IMG/VR virus record: IMGVR_UViG_3300047356_000549
Coordinates: 1-26,343 of that record
Strand: one strand, 5' to 3'
DNA from: a virus
Length of the DNA: 26,343 nt
Shown: positions 1,140 to 26,130 of the stretch, in pieces
How positions within the stretch are numbered: position 1 is the first letter of the stretch
How the letters are laid out: each line of letters begins with the position of its first letter
Translations under genes and position numbers: made by a program
Notes under the pieces: generated by a model
The model's database searches: none
What the model was told of the DNA's origin: nothing
Seen by the model: the letters and a program-made list of their open reading frames with translations, nothing else

Positions 1140-1535
1140 TTATTGAAATATCCACTTTTTGTTACTGTGGTTGTAACAGGCAGTCTCTTGCCATTGCTTT
1201 TGTTTTCCTCGGTAACGCATTGTATTGAACATGTAATGACATCCTGTTGCATCTATTTGTACTAGCTTAACAATACCAATACTGTTACCTGGAACTTCCC
1301 AAGTGCATTGTTGTCCAACTTCCATTTCACGTAATACAAATCCTACACATCGATCATATTCTTGTTGTGCAAGTCTTGGAACAGTGTAATAAGACTTTTT
1401 AAACTTGTTCATACCTAATGCAAACGCACCTGTATTTGGTTGGTACTGAGTAGCAACACTCATATTAGTTGTGTTGTTTGAACTACATGCACCTAGTGCA
1501 AGACTAATTAAAAGTGGGATAAGCAAACGCTTCAT
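1140..1535 (-). CDS. Small lipoprotein, third of three in tandem
   Basis: This 131-residue protein starts with a lipoprotein signal peptide: basic MKR, a hydrophobic stretch, then the lipobox L-G-A-C with Cys at residue 16, followed by SSNNTT. The Cys would be lipidated after signal peptidase II cleavage. The rest has two further Cys residues (CVGF and CTWE) and one CYNH near the end, which could form disulfides in the periplasm. The residue after the lipid Cys is Ser, so outer-membrane sorting is expected if the host has a Lol system. It overlaps the preceding lipoprotein gene by 32 bases, and GGAG lies about 11 bases before the ATG. The mature protein is not recognised. An envelope role, for example superinfection exclusion or help with lysis, is only inference. 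Confidence 0.85.
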   Translation of the reverse strand: MKRLLIPLLISLALGACSSNNTTNMSVATQYQPNTGAFALGMNKFKKSYYTVPRLAQQEYDRCVGFVLREMEVGQQCTWEVPGNSIGIVKLVQIDATGCHYMFNTMRYRGKQKQWQETACYNHSNKKWIFQ

Positions 1536-1857
1536 TTACTGGTCTCCAAGTTACATTACCGACATGGTCAGTAAACTTACAAAGTAATGTTTCACCTGAC
1601 TTAGGGTTGTTACGGTTAGAGTTGATAGGACGACTGATTCTACAATCACTTGCTACACCAGAATCTTTCACAACGTGTTCAACTCTAGGTTTGTCTGTAC
1701 ATTCAGTTACGCCTTCACTTGAAACATTGTTACCCTGTGTATGTATTTTTGTTGTTTGGTAACAATATTGCTGATTGTCGTGATAAGCATATTGAGGTCC
1801 GGAGGAGCAGGCCGACAGTGCGGCCAGCACTCCAATTAGTGTTAACACCCTAAACAT
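1504..1857 (-). CDS. Small lipoprotein, second of three in tandem
   Basis: The chosen start is the ATG at 1857, one base after the stop of the upstream lipoprotein gene (TAAAATG), which implies translational coupling. It yields a compact signal peptide, MFRVLTLIGVLAALSAC, with lipobox L-S-A-C. A frame extension to an ATG at 1890 would add 11 residues with no ribosome-binding site, so it is less likely. The mature part has several Cys (CYQTT, CTDK, CRIS, CKFT) and no recognised domain. The CKFTDHVGNVTW segment resembles surface-antigen-like lipoproteins (17 kDa type), but only weakly. It probably sits in the envelope together with its two neighbours. Function unknown. Confidence 0.8.
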   Translation of the reverse strand: MFRVLTLIGVLAALSACSSGPQYAYHDNQQYCYQTTKIHTQGNNVSSEGVTECTDKPRVEHVVKDSGVASDCRISRPINSNRNNPKSGETLLCKFTDHVGNVTWRPVNEAFAYPTFN

Positions 1858-1858
1858 T

Positions 1859-2389
1859 TTAATTGCCGTCGGGTGTATTATTTTGTGCAATTACGTTTGC
1901 AGATTTTGCTTCAGCTAGTAACGCATCAAACACATCTTTACGCATACTAAGTTTTACGAAAGTAAAGTTCTTGCCTGCATACTTAAATGTACCTGTTTCA
2001 CGTGATACATGCTCACGAATTGCTGTGTTGTCAACTTTGTAACTAATAATAGTATCTGTTTGTCTTTGTTCAGAACCATTGTTGTCTTGAAACTTTAATA
2101 CCGTTTCTGAATTAACTTTACTATTAATACGTTTTGCAAAGTTATTCATTGCAATAGCGTACATTTGTTCTTCAGCGGCTTGTACAAAAATACTTTCACC
2201 TGCACCGCAAGAATAAGCATAATCTTCTTTCCACCAGAACCAGCCTTCGCTACCAGTTTCTGCACAACTTGCATACCATTTAGGTTGTGCATATGTGTCT
2301 CGTTCTGCGATTTCTACATATCCGCTTGAGCAAGCGCCTAGTAGTGATAGAGCACCAATCATGATGCCGGTCTTTATAATGCCTTTCAT
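1859..2389 (-). CDS. LPP20-like lipoprotein, first of three in tandem
   Basis: This 176-residue protein has a lipoprotein signal, MKGIIKTGIMIGALSLLGAC, with the lipid Cys at residue 20. The mature part contains a region (about 75-165) with AEEQMYAIAMNNFAKRINSKV followed by alternating beta strands. This resembles the LPP20/flagellar-assembly lipoprotein fold, in which an A-x-x-N-x-A-x-x-I helix is followed by strands. I am moderately sure of that family and sure of the lipoprotein class. GGAGG lies 6-7 bases before the ATG. It is the first gene of a lipoprotein operon driven by a clear sigma-70-like promoter at 2431-2459. Bacterial-looking lipoproteins are unusual in a T4-like phage; they may have come from the host or modify the envelope of the infected cell. 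Confidence 0.85.
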   Translation of the reverse strand: MKGIIKTGIMIGALSLLGACSSGYVEIAERDTYAQPKWYASCAETGSEGWFWWKEDYAYSCGAGESIFVQAAEEQMYAIAMNNFAKRINSKVNSETVLKFQDNNGSEQRQTDTIISYKVDNTAIREHVSRETGTFKYAGKNFTFVKLSMRKDVFDALLAEAKSANVIAQNNTPDGN

Positions 2390-2476: not shown

Positions 2477-3049
2477 TTAGTTCCAACGATAAAAGATGTG
2501 TGTTGAAATTGATCCGACTAGTTGGATCTTACTTGCCCACTTAGGTGATACATAGTCAGCATGATAGTGTGTAGCACCTTCTGTGATACCTCGCATCTTC
2601 TCGTTATGTAAAATTTTATAGGCAACAATTTGAGCCATACGCCAAGCATCGTTATCTCTTACTGTATCAGCCTTGCCATCACAGTACCAACTGAATTGAC
2701 ACCTGTTCTTTTTTGGATAGTAGATACGTTCATCATCAGATAAGTTAGGATCTTGTTTTGTTTTCCAACTTTCTTTAATTGGTCCTTCTCGAACAACTTC
2801 ACATATTGTGTTAGGATAACGAGTGTCTTGCACTCTGTTTAAAACTACATCAGCAACAGCATATTGTCCTGCTAATGGTTCTGACTTCGCTTCGAAGTAA
2901 ATGTTTTGTGCTAGACAATAAAGTTCTGGATGATTGTCTGCTGTGTACAATTCTTCAAGTTGTGGCTTTTGAAATGTACTTGCTTGTGTTTGGGCGAAAG
3001 CGGTCGACACCGTCATAACAGCTATTGCCCAGTATATTATATGTTTCAT
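2477..3049 (-). CDS. SleB/CwlJ-type cell-wall hydrolase (secreted endolysin)
   Basis: This protein hydrolyses peptidoglycan, probably for lysis. With the start at 3049 it has 190 residues. A signal peptide (MKHIIYWAIAVMTVSTAFA, cleavage before Q20) would carry it to the periplasm through Sec. The Hydrolase_2 domain spans about 44-190: CLAQNIYFEAKSEP with the likely catalytic Glu at residue 53, AVADVVLNRV, CQFSWYCDG, GATHYHADYVSPKWA and a final HIFYRWN. The frame extends to an ATG at 3061, but only the ATG at 3049 has a GAGG at the right distance, and it gives a cleaner signal peptide. The length suits a minimal SleB-like enzyme. A TTAAATA sequence lies just upstream and may be a late promoter. 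It sits beside the lipoprotein genes but is transcribed separately. The family call is firm; the role as main endolysin is inferred. Confidence 0.93.
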   Translation of the reverse strand: MKHIIYWAIAVMTVSTAFAQTQASTFQKPQLEELYTADNHPELYCLAQNIYFEAKSEPLAGQYAVADVVLNRVQDTRYPNTICEVVREGPIKESWKTKQDPNLSDDERIYYPKKNRCQFSWYCDGKADTVRDNDAWRMAQIVAYKILHNEKMRGITEGATHYHADYVSPKWASKIQLVGSISTHIFYRWN

Positions 3050-3103
3050 AGTTTGCCTCATCGTATATTTAAGTTATAACAAAACAACATTTAGTATGTG
3101 TTT

Positions 3104-5694: not shown

Positions 5695-5724
5695 AAAAAA
5701 AGGCCGCACTAAGCGACCCTTTTT
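5695..5724 (-). terminator. Intrinsic terminator after the porin-like gene
   Basis: On the minus strand, AAAGGGTCGC, a TTAGT loop and GCGGCCTTT form a stem of nine pairs with one bulged G and one G-T pair. A run of seven T follows. It stands 22 bases after the porin stop codon. Confidence 0.8.
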
Positions 5725-5745: not shown

Positions 5746-6561
5746 TTAAAATTTAAAGCTGATTCCTGCCATTGGAGACCAATCTTTTGAATCAGTGTCA
5801 TAGTCAACACCTGCTGATAGCTCTGTGCCATTCCATGCAACAACATACTCACCACCAATGTGCTGTAGTTTGTTAGTGTCATCACCGTTAACATATGCTG
5901 TAATTCCGTTTGATGCTAATGAACCTTCGTACGCCATTTTTGATGCGTCTGTGTCATATGTCATCATTCCGCCTGCTGTTAATCCAACTAAGTCTACGCC
6001 TGTTAGAGCTCCACCTAATACTGTGTTTTCAGTTGTGCGATTGTAGTCAGCACTTGCTGTTAACGAACCAACACCTGCATCTAATGTGTATGCACCTTGT
6101 AGGTTACTTACTTCAGATACATCAGTTGTCCAGTCTGTTAAACCTACGACTACACTTGCGCCACCCATTGTTACTTGTAATGACTCAGTCATTGTTGGTA
6201 CGTTTAGTGTTCCGTCTGCTGTTGTGTTTGCATTTGTTTCTGGTAATAGTCCATTGCTATCGCCAAATGCTAATGCTACTGCACCTGCTGTTGTTCCAAC
6301 AGTCCAAGTGTCTAATTTTAGTGAATCGCCGTCTGTTGCTTTGAAATCCAAATCAACTGTTGCAACATCACCTGCATCAATATCCAGTTCGACACCCATT
6401 GTGCCTGCTGTTTTATTTGCTGCTGTCTCTGCAAAATCAAGTGACACCGCACCTGAAATTATCGGAGTTGGCGCCAATACCGCTGTATCTTCTGCGGTTG
6501 CTAAAGTCGCTGATGAAAGCGCCAGAGTCGCCATTGCGACTGTGATTAAAGTCTTTTTCAT
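5746..6561 (-). CDS. Outer-membrane porin-like beta-barrel protein
   Basis: The 271-residue protein begins with a Sec signal peptide (MKKTLITVAMATLALSSATLATA, cleavage near residue 23). The mature chain consists almost entirely of alternating polar/apolar beta strands with Gly- and Asp-rich turns. It ends W-S-P-M-A-G-I-S-F-K-F: a C-terminal Phe with aromatic/hydrophobic residues at alternate positions, the BAM insertion signal of outer-membrane barrels. I infer a barrel of roughly 12-16 strands, smaller than typical trimeric porins (300-400 residues). No Cys occurs. AGAGGAAT precedes the ATG, and a strong terminator follows. It lies directly downstream of the phage tmRNA. Known phage outer-membrane proteins (Lom, PhoE-like porins of some prophages) alter surface properties; here nutrient entry or receptor masking is a guess. 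The class is well supported; the substrate is not. Confidence 0.85.
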   Translation of the reverse strand: MKKTLITVAMATLALSSATLATAEDTAVLAPTPIISGAVSLDFAETAANKTAGTMGVELDIDAGDVATVDLDFKATDGDSLKLDTWTVGTTAGAVALAFGDSNGLLPETNANTTADGTLNVPTMTESLQVTMGGASVVVGLTDWTTDVSEVSNLQGAYTLDAGVGSLTASADYNRTTENTVLGGALTGVDLVGLTAGGMMTYDTDASKMAYEGSLASNGITAYVNGDDTNKLQHIGGEYVVAWNGTELSAGVDYDTDSKDWSPMAGISFKF

Positions 6562-6655: not shown

Positions 6656-6663
6656 TATTTATT
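6656..6663 (-). promoter_or_regulatory. Possible T4-late-like promoter AATAAATA upstream of the porin
   Basis: The minus strand reads GATAATAAATAAATTG between the tmRNA and the porin, about 95 bases before the porin ATG. The leader also holds a 6-bp hairpin (TATCTA/TAGATA, 6615-6632). The distance is long and the region is very AT-rich, so this is tentative; the porin could instead be read through from the tmRNA promoter. Confidence 0.3.
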
Positions 6664-6679
6664 ATCTAATACAATTAGT

Positions 6680-6953
6680 TAAAGCACAACTTTTCTGTTG
6701 CCAGGTAAGTTGCCAACCCCTACATACCTAATTTAGGCTGCTAATGCCATTTCTGGCGCTATATTTGCGTTTGCAATTATAAGTTTTCTTCGCGATAACC
6801 GTGCTTAGATCCGGGCAACTCCACTCTTCTACTAATCCGCCTGTCGATCCTAGTTCAGCCCCATCATAAAAACATTCAGCAAATGTGCTTATGGTGGAGC
6901 TGTCCGGTACTGCCCCGGAGTCCAGCTCGTCGTTTGAATTGCTTCAACGTTAC
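6680..6953 (-). ncRNA. ssrA: Circularly permuted (two-piece) alphaproteobacterial-type tmRNA
   Basis: tmRNA with SmpB rescues stalled ribosomes and adds a degradation tag. On the minus strand the acceptor half comes first, as in permuted genes. T-arm TCCGG-GGCAGTA-CCGGA (6919-6903) is followed by acceptor strand CAGCTCC (6902-6896), discriminator A (6895) and encoded CCA (6894-6892). A 29-base intervening segment (6891-6863) would be excised. The coding half then opens with GGGGCTG (6862-6856), which pairs with CAGCTCC over 7 bp with one G-U, and continues AACTAGGATCGAC. The tag frame GCA...TAA (6774-6733) encodes ANANIAPEMALAA. With the charged Ala the tag would end ALAA, as in known tags. 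The stop lies in a CCTAA/TTAGG hairpin. The outer ends (about 6953 and 6680) are estimated from the promoter and the last hairpin. Permuted tmRNAs are known in alphaproteobacteria and a few other lineages; a complete phage-borne copy is notable. SmpB is not in the window. Confidence 0.93.
6733..6774 (-). other. tmRNA tag reading frame
   Basis: Resume codon GCA at 6774-6772, then AAC GCA AAT ATA GCG CCA GAA ATG GCA TTA GCA GCC and TAA at 6735-6733. The encoded tag ANANIAPEMALAA has the A-L-A-A end recognised by ClpXP-type proteases in studied bacteria. Confidence 0.92.
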
Positions 6954-6958
6954 AGTAC

Positions 6959-6989
6959 TATTTATACAGTCACTTTACCTAAATGTCAA
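6959..6989 (-). promoter_or_regulatory. tmRNA promoter: consensus sigma-70 whose -10 is also a T4-late motif
   Basis: TTGACA (6989-6984), exactly 17 bases and TATAAA (6966-6961) are followed by TA, so the -10 reads TATAAATA, a perfect T4 late consensus. Transcription would start near 6953, giving an acceptor RNA of about 60 bases. An A-tract (TTTAAAAAAA) lies just upstream of the -35. The same piece of DNA could therefore serve host polymerase early and gp55-type polymerase late. Confidence 0.8.
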
Positions 6990-6998
6990 GAACTTTTT

Positions 6999-12619: not shown

Positions 12620-13040
12620 GTAGTTTGGGCATGCTGTATTTCTTCTTGACTTCAAACTGATCTGGCGGTAGTTTAGCATAATTTCTCACGCCGATCGGAT
12701 AACTGATTAATAATTTATCTATGTAAAGTAAGTAATTAAACATAGAATTCTTTTTGTCTATAACGATATGTATCTCAAAATTTGACTCAGAAAAACGGTC
12801 TGTTAACTGTAAAGAATAACACATACCTAGTACGATACAGAACTCACAGTATTGATTCTCCTGTACAAGTTCCCACGGTGTTGGCCAGACAGTTTCGTCC
12901 CATGGATCAGTATGAATACTAACTATAGGAGATTGACTGTAAAAGTCAAAAACATCTTGCATTGGGTTATTTGATGTTTCTAAAGATTTTCTAAACTCGG
13001 ACCAGGCTCGAAGGCGTTGATCGTTATTTTTATCGAACAT
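12615..13040 (-). CDS. Conserved T4-like marine phage protein, function unknown
   Basis: The soluble protein has 141 residues. Motifs worth noting are RAWSEFRKSLETSNNPMQDV, DPWDETVWPTPWELVQENQY and YSLQLTDRF. I recall a protein with this WPTPWEL...ENxYCEF pattern in T4-like cyanophages and pelagiphages, of unknown role. Five residues around CEFCIVLGMC include three Cys. The ATG shares one base with the stop of the tail-fibre gene (TAATG), and AGGTGA precedes it. The coupling suggests a chaperone or accessory part for the fibre or baseplate, which is inference. Confidence 0.82.
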   Translation of the reverse strand: MFDKNNDQRLRAWSEFRKSLETSNNPMQDVFDFYSQSPIVSIHTDPWDETVWPTPWELVQENQYCEFCIVLGMCYSLQLTDRFSESNFEIHIVIDKKNSMFNYLLYIDKLLISYPIGVRNYAKLPPDQFEVKKKYSMPKLQ

Positions 13041-14734
13041 TATTCACCTGTAGCATCAATGTTTGTTTTTGATAATGTCACCTTGAATTCTATTTGCGAT
13101 AAATCATCGCTAGGCATATTGCTACCTATGTTTACATCTATTGTTTCGTCGAGTGTATCAGCATCAGCATCTTGTATAAGGACGTTAAAAGATATATCAT
13201 CTTCATATGCTTGTACTCCAGTATAGTTATGACTGTCGTGTAATGTTGCTGTTTTGTCTTTACCGTTCACGTTTATAGTAAGTATTCCTGTTCTATAAGC
13301 TGAATAATTTCTACTTGCTATTTGATAGTGTATATCAAAACGCTGACTAGCCACATCAGTTTCTGCCGGAAGTCTAAATCTTTTCTGATGTATGATACCG
13401 CTATCATCTGTGCCTGTTCGTGAAATTGTATTTAATATATGTGTTTCACCAAATACAATATCGGCTGGGCCTTCTACTTCTGGAAGGTATGCTACACTGT
13501 CCCAATATGAAGGATCATATGATAATACTGATGTTCTACTAAAAGTATCATGGTCACTTGAGTTTCCTGGCTGTTCAAATTTAACAACACTTACAGCCGG
13601 AAAGTGATCAGCACTTCCGTCGTTACCACACAAAGTAAACATATTATTTGATAGGTAATTCTTTGTACCAAATTTTGCCCAAATTGCATGCTTGTTTATA
13701 TTTTCAAAACTGTTATGCATAATTGTATTTTCATATGGGCCTGTTTGCTTACCACTGTTTGCTGTTAAATCTACTGTTAACAATCCAGAACCAAAAGCAA
13801 TTCCATATGCACAATTACTAAAGTTAACGTCTTTAATATGATTGTTGTTTGTATCCCAATCACTTGACATTCCGTATTCAAATCCTTGAATATCACAATC
13901 GTAAAACTTAATACGTTTTGTTTCAACTGTACCGTTTAGACTGTTCATTTCTATTCCTATAGAACCTGCATCAGCTGCATCGCCTGTTATCCACGGACCT
14001 TTAACTTTTACATCTTTAAATATACTATCTTTACAGCTATCTAAAACTATGGCTTTGTTTATTACAGTTGTTTCTAATGTTATACCTTCAATGTGAATAT
14101 TTGTTGCTTGGTTTAACGTTGTACTAGTTGCATCACTTGCTGGTGTTCCTACTGTACTAGTGCTGTTTACAGTTTTAAATAATGGCTTATTAGTTGTTGC
14201 TGATCTAATTACTGTTTTGTCACTACCGTCACCGATAATAGTTGCATATGGAGGAATATAAATTGTATCGTCAATTACATACTCACCAGCTGTAAGGTAT
14301 AATTTTACTCTACTTCCAATTGAACCTTTGATTGCATCACTAAGATAGAGTTGGTCAATAGCTGTTTGTAATTTAACTGTTGCTACTTGTGTAGTTTCAC
14401 CTGTTAGTCCAAAAGCCTTACCGTTTACTGTATCATCTAAGCGATCTTGTAATGATCTTGTTACTGGTGTACCACCTGGGCCGCCTGTGTCCATCCATGC
14501 ATCATCTGCTCTGTATGTATATGTATCAGCTAGATCAAATATATTATCGTATTGTGTTAAAACTTTTGTATTACCTACAGCTGGCGCTCCTTCACTAACA
14601 GCACCGTTACCTATAAATAATTCCCTTGCATCAACAGCCCAACCTAACTCACCTGAAGCAAGTTGAGGTATGCCGCTACCTGCGTTTTTTTGTCCTCTAC
14701 GGACTTGTATTCTTGATATCTGAACTACAGCCAT
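13040..14734 (-). CDS. Tail fibre or baseplate protein with right-handed beta-helix (pectate-lyase-like)
   Basis: The 564-residue protein opens with MAVVQISRIQVRRGQKNAGS followed by LASGELGWAVDARELFIGNG, the N-terminal module seen in many phage fibre and tropism proteins (mtd-like N region). After a linker, residues about 125-400 show YLTAGEYVIDDTIYIPPYATIIGDGSDKTVI and repeated short strands with N/D/G turns, the signature of pectate-lyase-like beta-helices. The C-terminal 120 residues form a separate beta-rich domain. No catalytic lyase motif can be assigned. GGAG precedes the ATG, and a GATAAATA late-like site overlaps the upstream stop. It is probably part of the adsorption apparatus, binding or trimming surface sugars. 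Confidence 0.88.
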   Translation of the reverse strand: MAVVQISRIQVRRGQKNAGSGIPQLASGELGWAVDARELFIGNGAVSEGAPAVGNTKVLTQYDNIFDLADTYTYRADDAWMDTGGPGGTPVTRSLQDRLDDTVNGKAFGLTGETTQVATVKLQTAIDQLYLSDAIKGSIGSRVKLYLTAGEYVIDDTIYIPPYATIIGDGSDKTVIRSATTNKPLFKTVNSTSTVGTPASDATSTTLNQATNIHIEGITLETTVINKAIVLDSCKDSIFKDVKVKGPWITGDAADAGSIGIEMNSLNGTVETKRIKFYDCDIQGFEYGMSSDWDTNNNHIKDVNFSNCAYGIAFGSGLLTVDLTANSGKQTGPYENTIMHNSFENINKHAIWAKFGTKNYLSNNMFTLCGNDGSADHFPAVSVVKFEQPGNSSDHDTFSRTSVLSYDPSYWDSVAYLPEVEGPADIVFGETHILNTISRTGTDDSGIIHQKRFRLPAETDVASQRFDIHYQIASRNYSAYRTGILTINVNGKDKTATLHDSHNYTGVQAYEDDISFNVLIQDADADTLDETIDVNIGSNMPSDDLSQIEFKVTLSKTNIDATGE

Positions 14735-18245: not shown

Positions 18246-18535
18246 TTTAGTGTGGCCAGTTGCTGTTGTAATGCTTTCTTTTGATCATCTAAAGATTTAA
18301 TTTGGCCCTGTAATGCTGTTCTTTGCTGAACGATTGTTTTCTTTCTTTCAGCTTCTGCTTTTGCTGGATCGGTAGGTGCTTGTCCTGCCGGCATAGGATC
18401 TTGTGTCGGAGCTGCACCTTGTCCTTGTGGTGCTGTTGCTGTTGGCGCCGGAGTTGCATTTGATCCTTGTGGTGCTGTTGCACCTGGTGCTGTTGCTGTT
18501 GGCGCTGTAGCTTGTTCTATTTCAAAAATCTTCAT
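18242..18535 (-). CDS. Ala/Pro/Thr-rich protein with C-terminal coiled coil
   Basis: The 97-residue protein has three parts: a short lead MKIFEIEQ, a low-complexity region (9-62) built from repeats of ATAPQG and ATAPTA type, and a coiled coil (63-97, KKTIVQQRTALQGQIKSLDD, then QKKALQQQLATLK). The DNA shows matching direct repeats. I-F-E at 3-5 fits the (L/I)-x-E pattern. AGAGG precedes the ATG, which overlaps the upstream stop (ATGA). A flexible tether plus an oligomerisation helix is the natural reading. No family recognised. Confidence 0.78.
   Translation of the reverse strand: MKIFEIEQATAPTATAPGATAPQGSNATPAPTATAPQGQGAAPTQDPMPAGQAPTDPAKAEAERKKTIVQQRTALQGQIKSLDDQKKALQQQLATLK
18423..18505 (-). 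repeat. Direct repeats encoding Ala/Pro/Thr-rich linker
   Basis: CCTTGTGGTGCTGTTGC occurs at 18423-18439 and 18465-18481. TGCTGTTGCTGTTGGCGC occurs at 18431-18448 and 18488-18505. They are in frame and encode the ATAPQG-like units, so length variation by slippage is likely. Confidence 0.75.
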
Positions 18536-18813
18536 ACTCTTGACCTCTTTCTTGGTTTATTTAACTTCTTAATTCTTTTTGAACCTGGTGCTGATCTTTT
18601 TGTAATTTTAGTTTTAGCAGCTACTAAGCCTCCTTTAGCTGTACGTGTCTTCTTTAATGTATTACTTGCTTTTACATTTAACGGTGCGTTACATGCAGAT
18701 GGACTAGCTCGAACTTGTCCTTTGCGTGGCCCGTATGTACATCTAAACTTAAGACTTGGACTTTTACCTGGGCGTCTTTGATACGCTCTTGATGTTATTT
18801 CAAGCACATTCAT
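18532..18813 (-). CDS. Very basic protein, paralogue of the next gene upstream
   Basis: The protein has 93 residues and is rich in Lys, Arg and Ala. The first half (SLKFRCTYGPRKGQVRASPSACNAPLNVK) has two Cys and matches the neighbouring protein by eye: (K/R)-(F/Y)-R-C-x-x-G-x-R-K-x-x-(I/V)-x-A-(S/T)-P-S-A-C-x-A-P-x-(N/D)-V-K. The second half is a basic tail (KKTRTAKGG, then KRSAPGSKRIKKLNKPRKRSRV). I recall such RC..GPRKG...AP proteins in T4-like cyanophages, sometimes called structural. DNA binding inside the head is plausible. V-L-E at 3-5 is close to, but not exactly, the protease pattern. ATGA overlaps at both ends. Confidence 0.8.
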   Translation of the reverse strand: MNVLEITSRAYQRRPGKSPSLKFRCTYGPRKGQVRASPSACNAPLNVKASNTLKKTRTAKGGLVAAKTKITKRSAPGSKRIKKLNKPRKRSRV

Positions 18814-19091
18814 TTTCTTCTATTCATTCCCTTGGCTAATCTAATACTTGCTGGGTTTGTACGCTTGGTACGTTTTGATACTCTTGCCATTTTAGCAGAT
18901 AATCTAGCTCTAGTACGCTTCATTACAGCTCGTTTTTTAACATCCATTGGTGCAAAACATGCACTAGGAGTAGCTACAATTCTATTTTTACGTTGGCCGC
19001 CCATGCAACGGTACTTACGCACTAAAGACTTGCCTTTGCGAGCCCAAATTTGTTTTTCGTCGAGGGGTGATGTGAGTTCTCTTAATAACAT
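18810..19091 (-). CDS. Very basic protein, paralogue of the next gene downstream
   Basis: The protein has 93 residues: MLLRELTSPLDEKQIWARKG, then SLVRKYRCMGGQRKNRIVATPSACFAPMDVK followed by a basic tail (KRTRARLSAKMARVSKRTKR). It shares the two-Cys core with the gene at 18532-18813, so the pair arose by tandem duplication. L-R-E at 3-5 (and L-D-E at 10-12) fits the protease pattern. The ATG at 19091 has no Shine-Dalgarno sequence: a perfect TATAAATA late motif ends only 5 bases before it. Translation is therefore leaderless from that promoter, or depends on coupling with the upstream gene that ends 16 bases earlier. Candidate packaged DNA-binding protein. Confidence 0.8.
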   Translation of the reverse strand: MLLRELTSPLDEKQIWARKGKSLVRKYRCMGGQRKNRIVATPSACFAPMDVKKRAVMKRTRARLSAKMARVSKRTKRTNPASIRLAKGMNRRK

Positions 19092-25053: not shown

Positions 25054-25303
25054 TATTCTTTGCCTCGATTACTTTTGCAATGCCGCGTTTGAATTTACGA
25101 GGGTCACCACTTTTAATTGCATTAATAAATCTACGTTCAAGCTCGCCTGCTGTAGTATCATCGTATGTACTACTAATTCTGTTAATTAAATTAATGCTAC
25201 TTTCAATTAAATTATTAGCTGTAGCTTCTATTAGACGATCATTACCATGATTGCGGCCTAATTCGTTTAATTCTTCTAATATGGATCTTGTACGTTTTTT
25301 CAT
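25040..25303 (-). CDS. Conserved small helical protein of T4-like marine phages
   Basis: The 87-residue protein starts MKKRTRSILEELNELGRNHG and later has LIESSINLINRISSTYDDTTAGELERRFINAIKSGDPRKFKRGIAKV. The GELERR(F/L)INSI.. .DP.KF.RGI pattern is one I remember from cyanophage genomes. It is helical and basic. I-L-E, L-E-E and L-N-E in residues 8-14 fit the protease pattern. GGAGCG precedes the ATG, and a CTAAATACATATAC promoter lies upstream. It is the first gene of the head block operon. Function unknown. Confidence 0.82.
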   Translation of the reverse strand: MKKRTRSILEELNELGRNHGNDRLIEATANNLIESSINLINRISSTYDDTTAGELERRFINAIKSGDPRKFKRGIAKVIEAKNNDTK

Positions 25304-25321
25304 TTTATCGCTCCGTATATG

Positions 25322-25328
25322 TATTTAG
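25322..25328 (-). promoter_or_regulatory. Late-type promoter CTAAATACATATAC, minus arm of a divergent pair
   Basis: The minus strand carries the same CTAAATACATATAC as the site at 20248. It is 19 bases before the ATG at 25303 and 6 bases from the plus-strand late motif at 25335. Confidence 0.5.
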
Positions 25329-25334
25329 CGTTTC

Positions 25335-25342
25335 GATAAATA
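25335..25342 (+). promoter_or_regulatory. T4-late-like promoter GATAAATA of the lipase gene
   Basis: CGATAAATATGATTG on the plus strand, 27 bases before the lipase ATG at 25369. It forms a back-to-back pair with the minus-strand site at 25322. Confidence 0.5.
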
Positions 25343-25368
25343 TGATTGTAATACATGAAGGAGGGCAT

Positions 25369-26130
25369 ATGAGTATATCAACAATGAATTTCAATGAAAG
25401 ATCCTTATTATTTGCAAAATTGTCTAGTATTGCTTATAGTAACATCAAAGAAGCAAAAAGTCAAGTAAAGAAATTAGGATTTACAACTGTAGAATTCTAC
25501 GAAAAGGACGGAGCACAAGCATACCGTTTTATGAACAAAGAAGATCTAGTTATTGCATGTCGCGGAACTGAGCCAACAGAGTTCAATGACATTAGCGCAG
25601 ATCTAAAAGCAATACCAGTAATGGCAGAAACAATATCAAGAGTGCATCAAGGTTTTAAAGCAGAAGTAGACGAACTATGGCCTGCTATTACGGAAGACAT
25701 TAACCGTAAAGCAAACTTAGGCAAGACACTATGGTTCTGTGGACACTCACTAGGAGCGGCAATGGCAACTATAATGGCAAGCCGTTGTTTACATGATGTA
25801 GAACTTAACGATCCTGTTGAGCTTTACACATTTGGTTCGCCACGTGTAGGTTGGAGAGGATATGTTAAGAGTTTAGGTGTAACACATCACCGTTGGAAGA
25901 ACAACAATGACATCGTCACTACTGTTCCTCTTTGGGCAATGGGTTACGTACATCACGGTACAGAACATTATCTTAATGCATACGGAAACTATAGAAAACC
26001 TACGGGTTGGCAGTTGTTCAAAGACAAGTGGCGTGGTATATGGATGGGACTAAAGCAAGGTAAGATAGATAGCTTTGGTGATCATTCAATGACTGAGTAC
26101 ATAAAACACATTACACGAATAGAGAGCTAA
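25369..26130 (+). CDS. Class 3 lipase (alpha/beta hydrolase)
   Basis: This protein likely hydrolyses ester bonds of lipids. With the start at 25369, where AAGGAGGG lies 5 bases before the ATG, it has 253 residues; an upstream extension of the frame to 25288 would cross the promoter. The Lipase_3 pattern is clear: VIACRGTE (64-68, oxyanion region), WFCGHSLGAAMA with nucleophile Ser127, VELYTFGSPRVG, then the acid Asp181 in NNNDIVTTVP, and a His in the C-terminal part (His239 in GDHSMTEY is the likely catalytic one). No signal peptide, so it acts in the cytoplasm or on the inner membrane, or is carried in the virion. It overlaps the convergent prs gene by 20 bases. Its role in infection is unknown; host membrane breakdown is one possibility. 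Confidence 0.9.
   Translation: MSISTMNFNERSLLFAKLSSIAYSNIKEAKSQVKKLGFTTVEFYEKDGAQAYRFMNKEDLVIACRGTEPTEFNDISADLKAIPVMAETISRVHQGFKAEVDELWPAITEDINRKANLGKTLWFCGHSLGAAMATIMASRCLHDVELNDPVELYTFGSPRVGWRGYVKSLGVTHHRWKNNNDIVTTVPLWAMGYVHHGTEHYLNAYGNYRKPTGWQLFKDKWRGIWMGLKQGKIDSFGDHSMTEYIKHITRIES

Follow-up and report, generated by a model that had tools for sequence, protein, structure and literature searches.

A predicted porin-like outer-membrane protein encoded next to the tmRNA gene in uncultured T4-like aquatic phages

A gene encoding a porin-like outer-membrane protein occurs in a group of uncultured T4-like aquatic phages, where it usually lies directly behind a tmRNA gene. The evidence presented here supports the gene itself, its signals, its conservation, the predicted fold, the acidity of the chain and the linkage to tmRNA. 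The scales appear evenly balanced on the further reading that this is a phage porin, a cation-favouring pore of 16 strands in the outer membrane of the host that probably keeps or widens the nutrient flow and whose loops offer little grip. The window (the whole 26-kb stretch of DNA analysed, an IMG/VR virus record) contains the T4-like genes nrdA, nrdB, an endonuclease, an exonuclease and DUF6267. The features in and around the gene are the following.

5746..6561, minus strand: gene of the porin-like outer-membrane protein (open reading frame, family relatives, AlphaFold2 model and fold search)
6493..6561, minus strand: signal peptide, residues 1-23 (sequence; similar N-terminus with AxA-type site in aligned relatives)
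6187..6261, minus strand: residues 101-125, a long segment of low pLDDT that links predicted strand 5 to strand 6, where 16-stranded porins have their constriction loop L3
5749..5772, minus strand: C-terminal beta-signal MAGISFKF, the last strand, with F at -1 and -3 and G at -6 (family alignment)
5696..5724, minus strand: intrinsic terminator hairpin and then a U-rich tail, downstream of the porin gene (-15.8 kcal/mol, z -5.2)
6656..6663, minus strand: AATAAATA, a late-promoter-like box differing at one position from TATAAATA, the late-promoter box of T4, and lying 102 nt ahead of the ATG
6683..6993, minus strand: two-piece (permuted) tmRNA gene of alphaproteobacterial type (Rfam RF01849 with 116.7 bits and RF04321 with 108.2 bits; E 1.5e-31)

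The open reading frame starts with ATG and encodes 271 amino acids. Its signal peptide, MKKTLITVAMATLALSSATLATA followed by E, shows an AxA-type site with cleavage after ATA, and a comparable signal-like N-terminus was recognized in all 41 aligned relatives despite varying sequence, as judged by eye and from the AxA pattern without a dedicated predictor. At the opposite end phenylalanine is terminal in 41 of 41 chains, position -3 is F or Y in all of them and G stands at -6 in 33. Thus both the Sec signal peptide and the C-terminal aromatic beta-signal of general porins are present in this family. The original prediction had already named the signal peptide, the terminal phenylalanine (GISFKF), a terminator belonging to the gene and the position behind the tmRNA, and all four were borne out, the terminator as a hairpin of 12 pairs and the tmRNA by its Rfam match just upstream. 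The regularity of the protein ends also bears on the possibility that we are dealing with a component of the virion or tail which is all-beta by coincidence. All-beta chains rich in Gly and Thr are common in phage fibres, but the signal-like N-terminus together with an FxF C-terminus recurs in every complete member, the protein matched no named structural family in a PHROG search and the fold matches are porins; we give this explanation hardly any credence.

A scan with the protein as query revealed 24 loci and a scan with the alignment 79 loci, all of them on viral contigs and 41-95% identical, and a third scan with a distant member as query added two further contigs. Altogether more than 75 relatives on uncultured viral contigs are known, so the proposed search for the same gene in other phages was positive for these contigs, though not for isolate phages, among which, as among plasmids, no sequence relative was found. 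The alignment of 41 members contains 33 invariant positions, and dN/dS values of 0.09-0.39 indicate purifying selection. Judging by the number of loci and these low values, the open reading frame is not a chance product. At the level of sequence the family has no tie to any porin family: none of the Pfam porin families (Porin_1, Porin_2, Porin_4, OprB, OprD and others) matched any of the 41 members scanned, where Opacity was the sole porin-type match (2 of 41, best E 0.05), a PDB sequence search returned no relative, and hhalign of the family against the Rhodobacter porin 2por was not significant. The absence of sequence matches is weak evidence in the case of barrels, since the solved porin 2por finds itself alone in the PDB sequence search. 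A search of 84,980 prokaryote species genomes detected no relative by conserved motifs, and as it used short motif patterns, distant bacterial relatives may still exist. No match was found in the genome of phage Melnitz, the CsgG profile PF03783 did not match the family, and the open-licence literature contains no report of it. PHROG_9220 (E 0.002-0.02) was considered as a homologue and rejected; it matches none of the porin-carrying contigs.

The fold was predicted with AlphaFold2 from a family alignment of 20 sequences. The best model comprises 16 strands of barrel length and no helix of four or more residues; since its confidence is moderate (pLDDT 67, pTM 0.56), the strand count and the closure of the barrel are to be read as predictions. 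Only this one of five models is good, the other four reaching pLDDT 43-61, and even in the best one the N-terminal half is weaker (pLDDT 52-75). A model from the single sequence was meaningless (pLDDT 36) and was discarded. In the predicted strands hydrophobic residues alternate more strongly than in any of 5000 shuffles (z 6.9). In Foldseek the first rank is taken by an entry listed as an artificial metalloprotein, and the top natural matches are OmpC, OmpE36, OmpU and OmpF (E about 5e-5; 33 matches at E<=0.001), with TM-scores to porins of about 0.5 and high rmsd. VIA-align gave Z 13.0 to 2por (211 residues, 4.3 A) and 13.8 to OmpT, spanning residues 31-269. The best structural matches are thus porins with 16-18 strands, but VDAC and 18-stranded channels score just below, so what is matched is a porin-like barrel shape and not one particular family. 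Of the alphaproteobacterial porins with which a comparison had been called for, the Rhodobacter porin 2por matched in structure but not in sequence. The all-beta mature chain and the porin-like outer-membrane barrel proposed at the outset both find support in these results together with the signal peptide and the beta-signal, and the structure predicted, at moderate confidence, was not the non-closed one that would have spoken against them.

The connections between the predicted strands alternate regularly, odd-numbered ones having 4-25 and even-numbered ones 2-5 residues, and this alternation fits a barrel with both chain ends in the periplasm. The extracellular loops of the model measure 4-10 residues (L4 has 10, the rest 4-6), except for the one that joins strand 5 to strand 6. 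The exceptional 25-residue segment, although of low pLDDT, contains conserved N103, T118, L119, P122 and M124-S127. Seven of ten gap runs in the alignment fall into loops, which make up 36% of the residues, and loop conservation is close to that of the strands. The moderate confidence, the weaker N-terminal half, the disagreement among the five models and the lack of any sequence relation to porins would also suit another outer-membrane barrel, either with fewer strands or closed and serving as adhesin, structural anchor or enzyme without an open pore. Since the structural matches along the entire chain are mostly porins, and both the L3-like loop and the acidic residues at inward positions agree with a pore, we consider such a barrel distinctly unlikely.

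The composition of the chain is extreme. The 41 mature chains contain 32-43 acidic residues (D+E) and only 0-9 basic ones (K+R), and six of them have no basic residue at all. In each chain about 15 acidic and 1.2 basic residues occupy strand positions that face inward, as against 2 and 0.1 at those facing outward, a split that is partly circular because the facing was assigned by hydrophobicity. The porin 2por is acidic too (51 D+E versus 17 K+R), but less extremely. A basic cluster in the pore eyelet is typical of OmpF; with so few basic residues, and about 1.2 of them inward per chain, an eyelet of this type is excluded in the phage family, which does not exclude the porin fold as such. From the acidic lumen a preference for cations can be predicted. 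Additionally, side-chain nitrogen amounts to 0.125 per residue, the lowest value among the 26 window genes compared (0.22-0.53 in the others), a trait that could be of advantage for a protein made in quantity where the water is poor in nitrogen.

From these features we infer the following about the phage porin, namely its insertion into the membrane, its pore activity and selectivity, its timing, its host and its benefit. It would be made in an infected Gram-negative, probably alphaproteobacterial, cell, where the signal peptide would direct its export by the host machinery and the beta-signal would guide its assembly into the outer membrane as a compact 16-stranded barrel. The loop at the L3 position would narrow the pore, and an acid-lined lumen almost without basic residues would favour cations and neutral small solutes. 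In this way the flow of solutes and nutrients into the cell would probably be kept or widened while the synthesis of host porins fails, and the very short remaining loops would give other phages hardly any hold. A diffusion pore would be consistent with the short predicted loops and the acidic lumen, which also agree with a protein that is poorly suited as a phage receptor. As these phages carry a pore protein of their own that was found only in viral sequences, they probably rebuild the surface of the infected cell; a remodelling of the host outer membrane is not generally attributed to lytic T4-like phages.

Because nearly absent outer loops make a poor receptor, the main rival is receptor replacement, in which the protein would mainly displace or crowd out those host porins that other phages use, with the result that phages no longer adsorb to the infected cell or to its debris (superinfection exclusion), and the almost loopless outside would be the active feature. 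The loops of 4-6 residues predicted apart from L3 and L4 speak for it, and there is a precedent in the lambdoid phage PA-2, which harbours an OmpC-like porin gene, lc, and whose lysogens make less OmpC, the receptor of PA-2. The exact box TATAAATA was found upstream of the porin gene in 12 of 51 relatives, which belong to several separate lineages, as compared to 2.8% of random stretches. Such boxes count in favour of a phage porin and may function as late promoters of the gene. A late product would profit less from exclusion, and no rapid change of the loops is visible, as dN/dS is low overall and loop conservation resembles that of the strands. Receptor replacement thus appears unlikely, if still worth attention, beside a porin serving nutrient flow.

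The tmRNA gene directly upstream is complete, with a tag read from the sequence as ANANIAPEMALAA, although ARAGORN missed it. A permuted tmRNA precedes the porin gene on the same strand in 32 of the 35 relatives scanned; it was not found at L081, L089 and L091 within the DNA scanned. In many relatives the gap between tmRNA and start codon remains at about 116-150 nt despite diverged sequence, and the constancy of this neighbour hints at a gene module of one infection stage. The usual gene order is nrdA-nrdB-grx-...-tmRNA-porin-...-nuclease-...-cell wall hydrolase. In L061 and L063 tmRNA and porin are kept and the other neighbours known from the window are absent within 8 kb; the L063 contig encodes capsid and portal proteins that are closest to those of jumbo phages, e.g., Phosso, Atu_ph07 and PA5oct, and the 300-kb contig L095 has genes matching this capsid and portal. 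Since jumbo-type contigs carry it as well, the tmRNA-porin module spans at least two lineages of the T4 superfamily. The alpha-type tmRNA and the kinship to rhizobial jumbo phages suggest alphaproteobacterial hosts; Melnitz has a similar SAR11-like tmRNA, yet its host belongs to another class. Taken to its full extent, the hypothesis of a virus-exclusive porin family that ranks among the most stripped-down and acidic of the 16-stranded porins, is inherited along with the two-piece tmRNA as a module moving between T4-like and jumbo T4-like phages, and remodels the outer membrane of infected aquatic bacteria, is conceivable but rather doubtful.

Further genes of the window touch the envelope or stand out for other reasons.

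2477-3061: cell wall hydrolase (PF07486)
1140-2389, minus strand: three consecutive lipoprotein-like open reading frames with GACSS/SACSS lipoboxes, adjoining the hydrolase
13040-14734, minus strand: pectate-lyase-like beta-helix protein with an Mtd N-terminal-like domain, encoded on the stretch that separates the ribonucleotide reductase genes from an exonuclease
18532-19091, minus strand: two adjacent, similar basic proteins of 93 amino acids with the related stretches ASPSACNAPLNVK and ATPSACFAPMDVK
25288-26130, plus strand: class 3 lipase (PF01764, E 2e-19); nearly all other window genes lie on the opposite strand

The hydrolase and the lipoprotein-like genes form an envelope or lysis cluster, in which two of the three lipoprotein-like frames diverge faster than their neighbours. 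The vicinity of this cluster, and the fact that the hydrolase remains a neighbour in most of those relatives whose contigs extend far enough, would suit a lysis helper, a barrel that disturbs the envelope by destabilising the outer membrane when infection ends. Nevertheless several kilobases and other genes lie in between, in the jumbo-type contigs tmRNA and porin persist although no PF07486 hydrolase lies within 8 kb, disruption would not need so strongly conserved a porin-like chain and nothing points to envelope damage; a lysis helper is therefore very improbable. The beta-helix protein is a possible tail fibre, and the pair of basic proteins may result from tandem duplication.

A conserved, apparently virus-only and nearly loopless porin makes it testable whether aquatic phages control the entry of nutrients into infected cells and whether they disarm phage receptors, and its compact, nearly all-acidic barrel could be a useful model pore. 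The general 16-stranded porins (OmpF/OmpC/OmpU, 2por) resemble it in the signal peptide, the C-terminal Phe, the fold over the whole chain and, as far as the moderately confident model predicts, in the number of 16 strands and the long loop that follows strand 5. The mature phage chains have about 230-250 residues in contrast with about 300-340 in general porins, their other loops are very short, there is no sequence match, and with almost no Arg and Lys the basic eyelet cluster of OmpF appears to be missing. The curli pore CsgG/CsgF is known from pelagimyophages and phage Melnitz (PMC7029224, PMC9004378). CsgG is likewise an outer-membrane pore of related marine T4-like phages, but it is an unrelated oligomeric pore encoded by a separate gene, which was found on seven of 16 longer porin contigs (L054, L069, L091, L093, L095, L023, L011); these phages would have two distinct outer-membrane pores each. 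In viruses of marine oxygen-minimum zones an OmpL-like porin gene adjoins glnK-amtB and was traced to Flavobacteriales (PMC8115048). It resembles the present gene as a beta-barrel porin on a marine viral contig in auxiliary-gene context, but it is linked to an ammonium transporter, whereas the phage family is linked to tmRNA and has no bacterial relative detected. BFVD A0A2I7SAB4 and OmpC-annotated proteins of uncultured Caudovirales are predicted porin-like viral barrels as well, and with 8-11% identity to the phage porin they give no evidence of a common family. Temperate phages carry porins of the lambdoid Lc/NmpC type, which are closely related to OmpC of the host. These porins have in common with the present family that the porin gene is borne by a phage, but the latter resides in T4-like phages and has no match in Pfam or among the prokaryote genomes. 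Phage-borne porins are therefore already known, and the family described here is new among them in being separate in sequence, compact, very acidic, restricted to viruses in our searches and linked to tmRNA.
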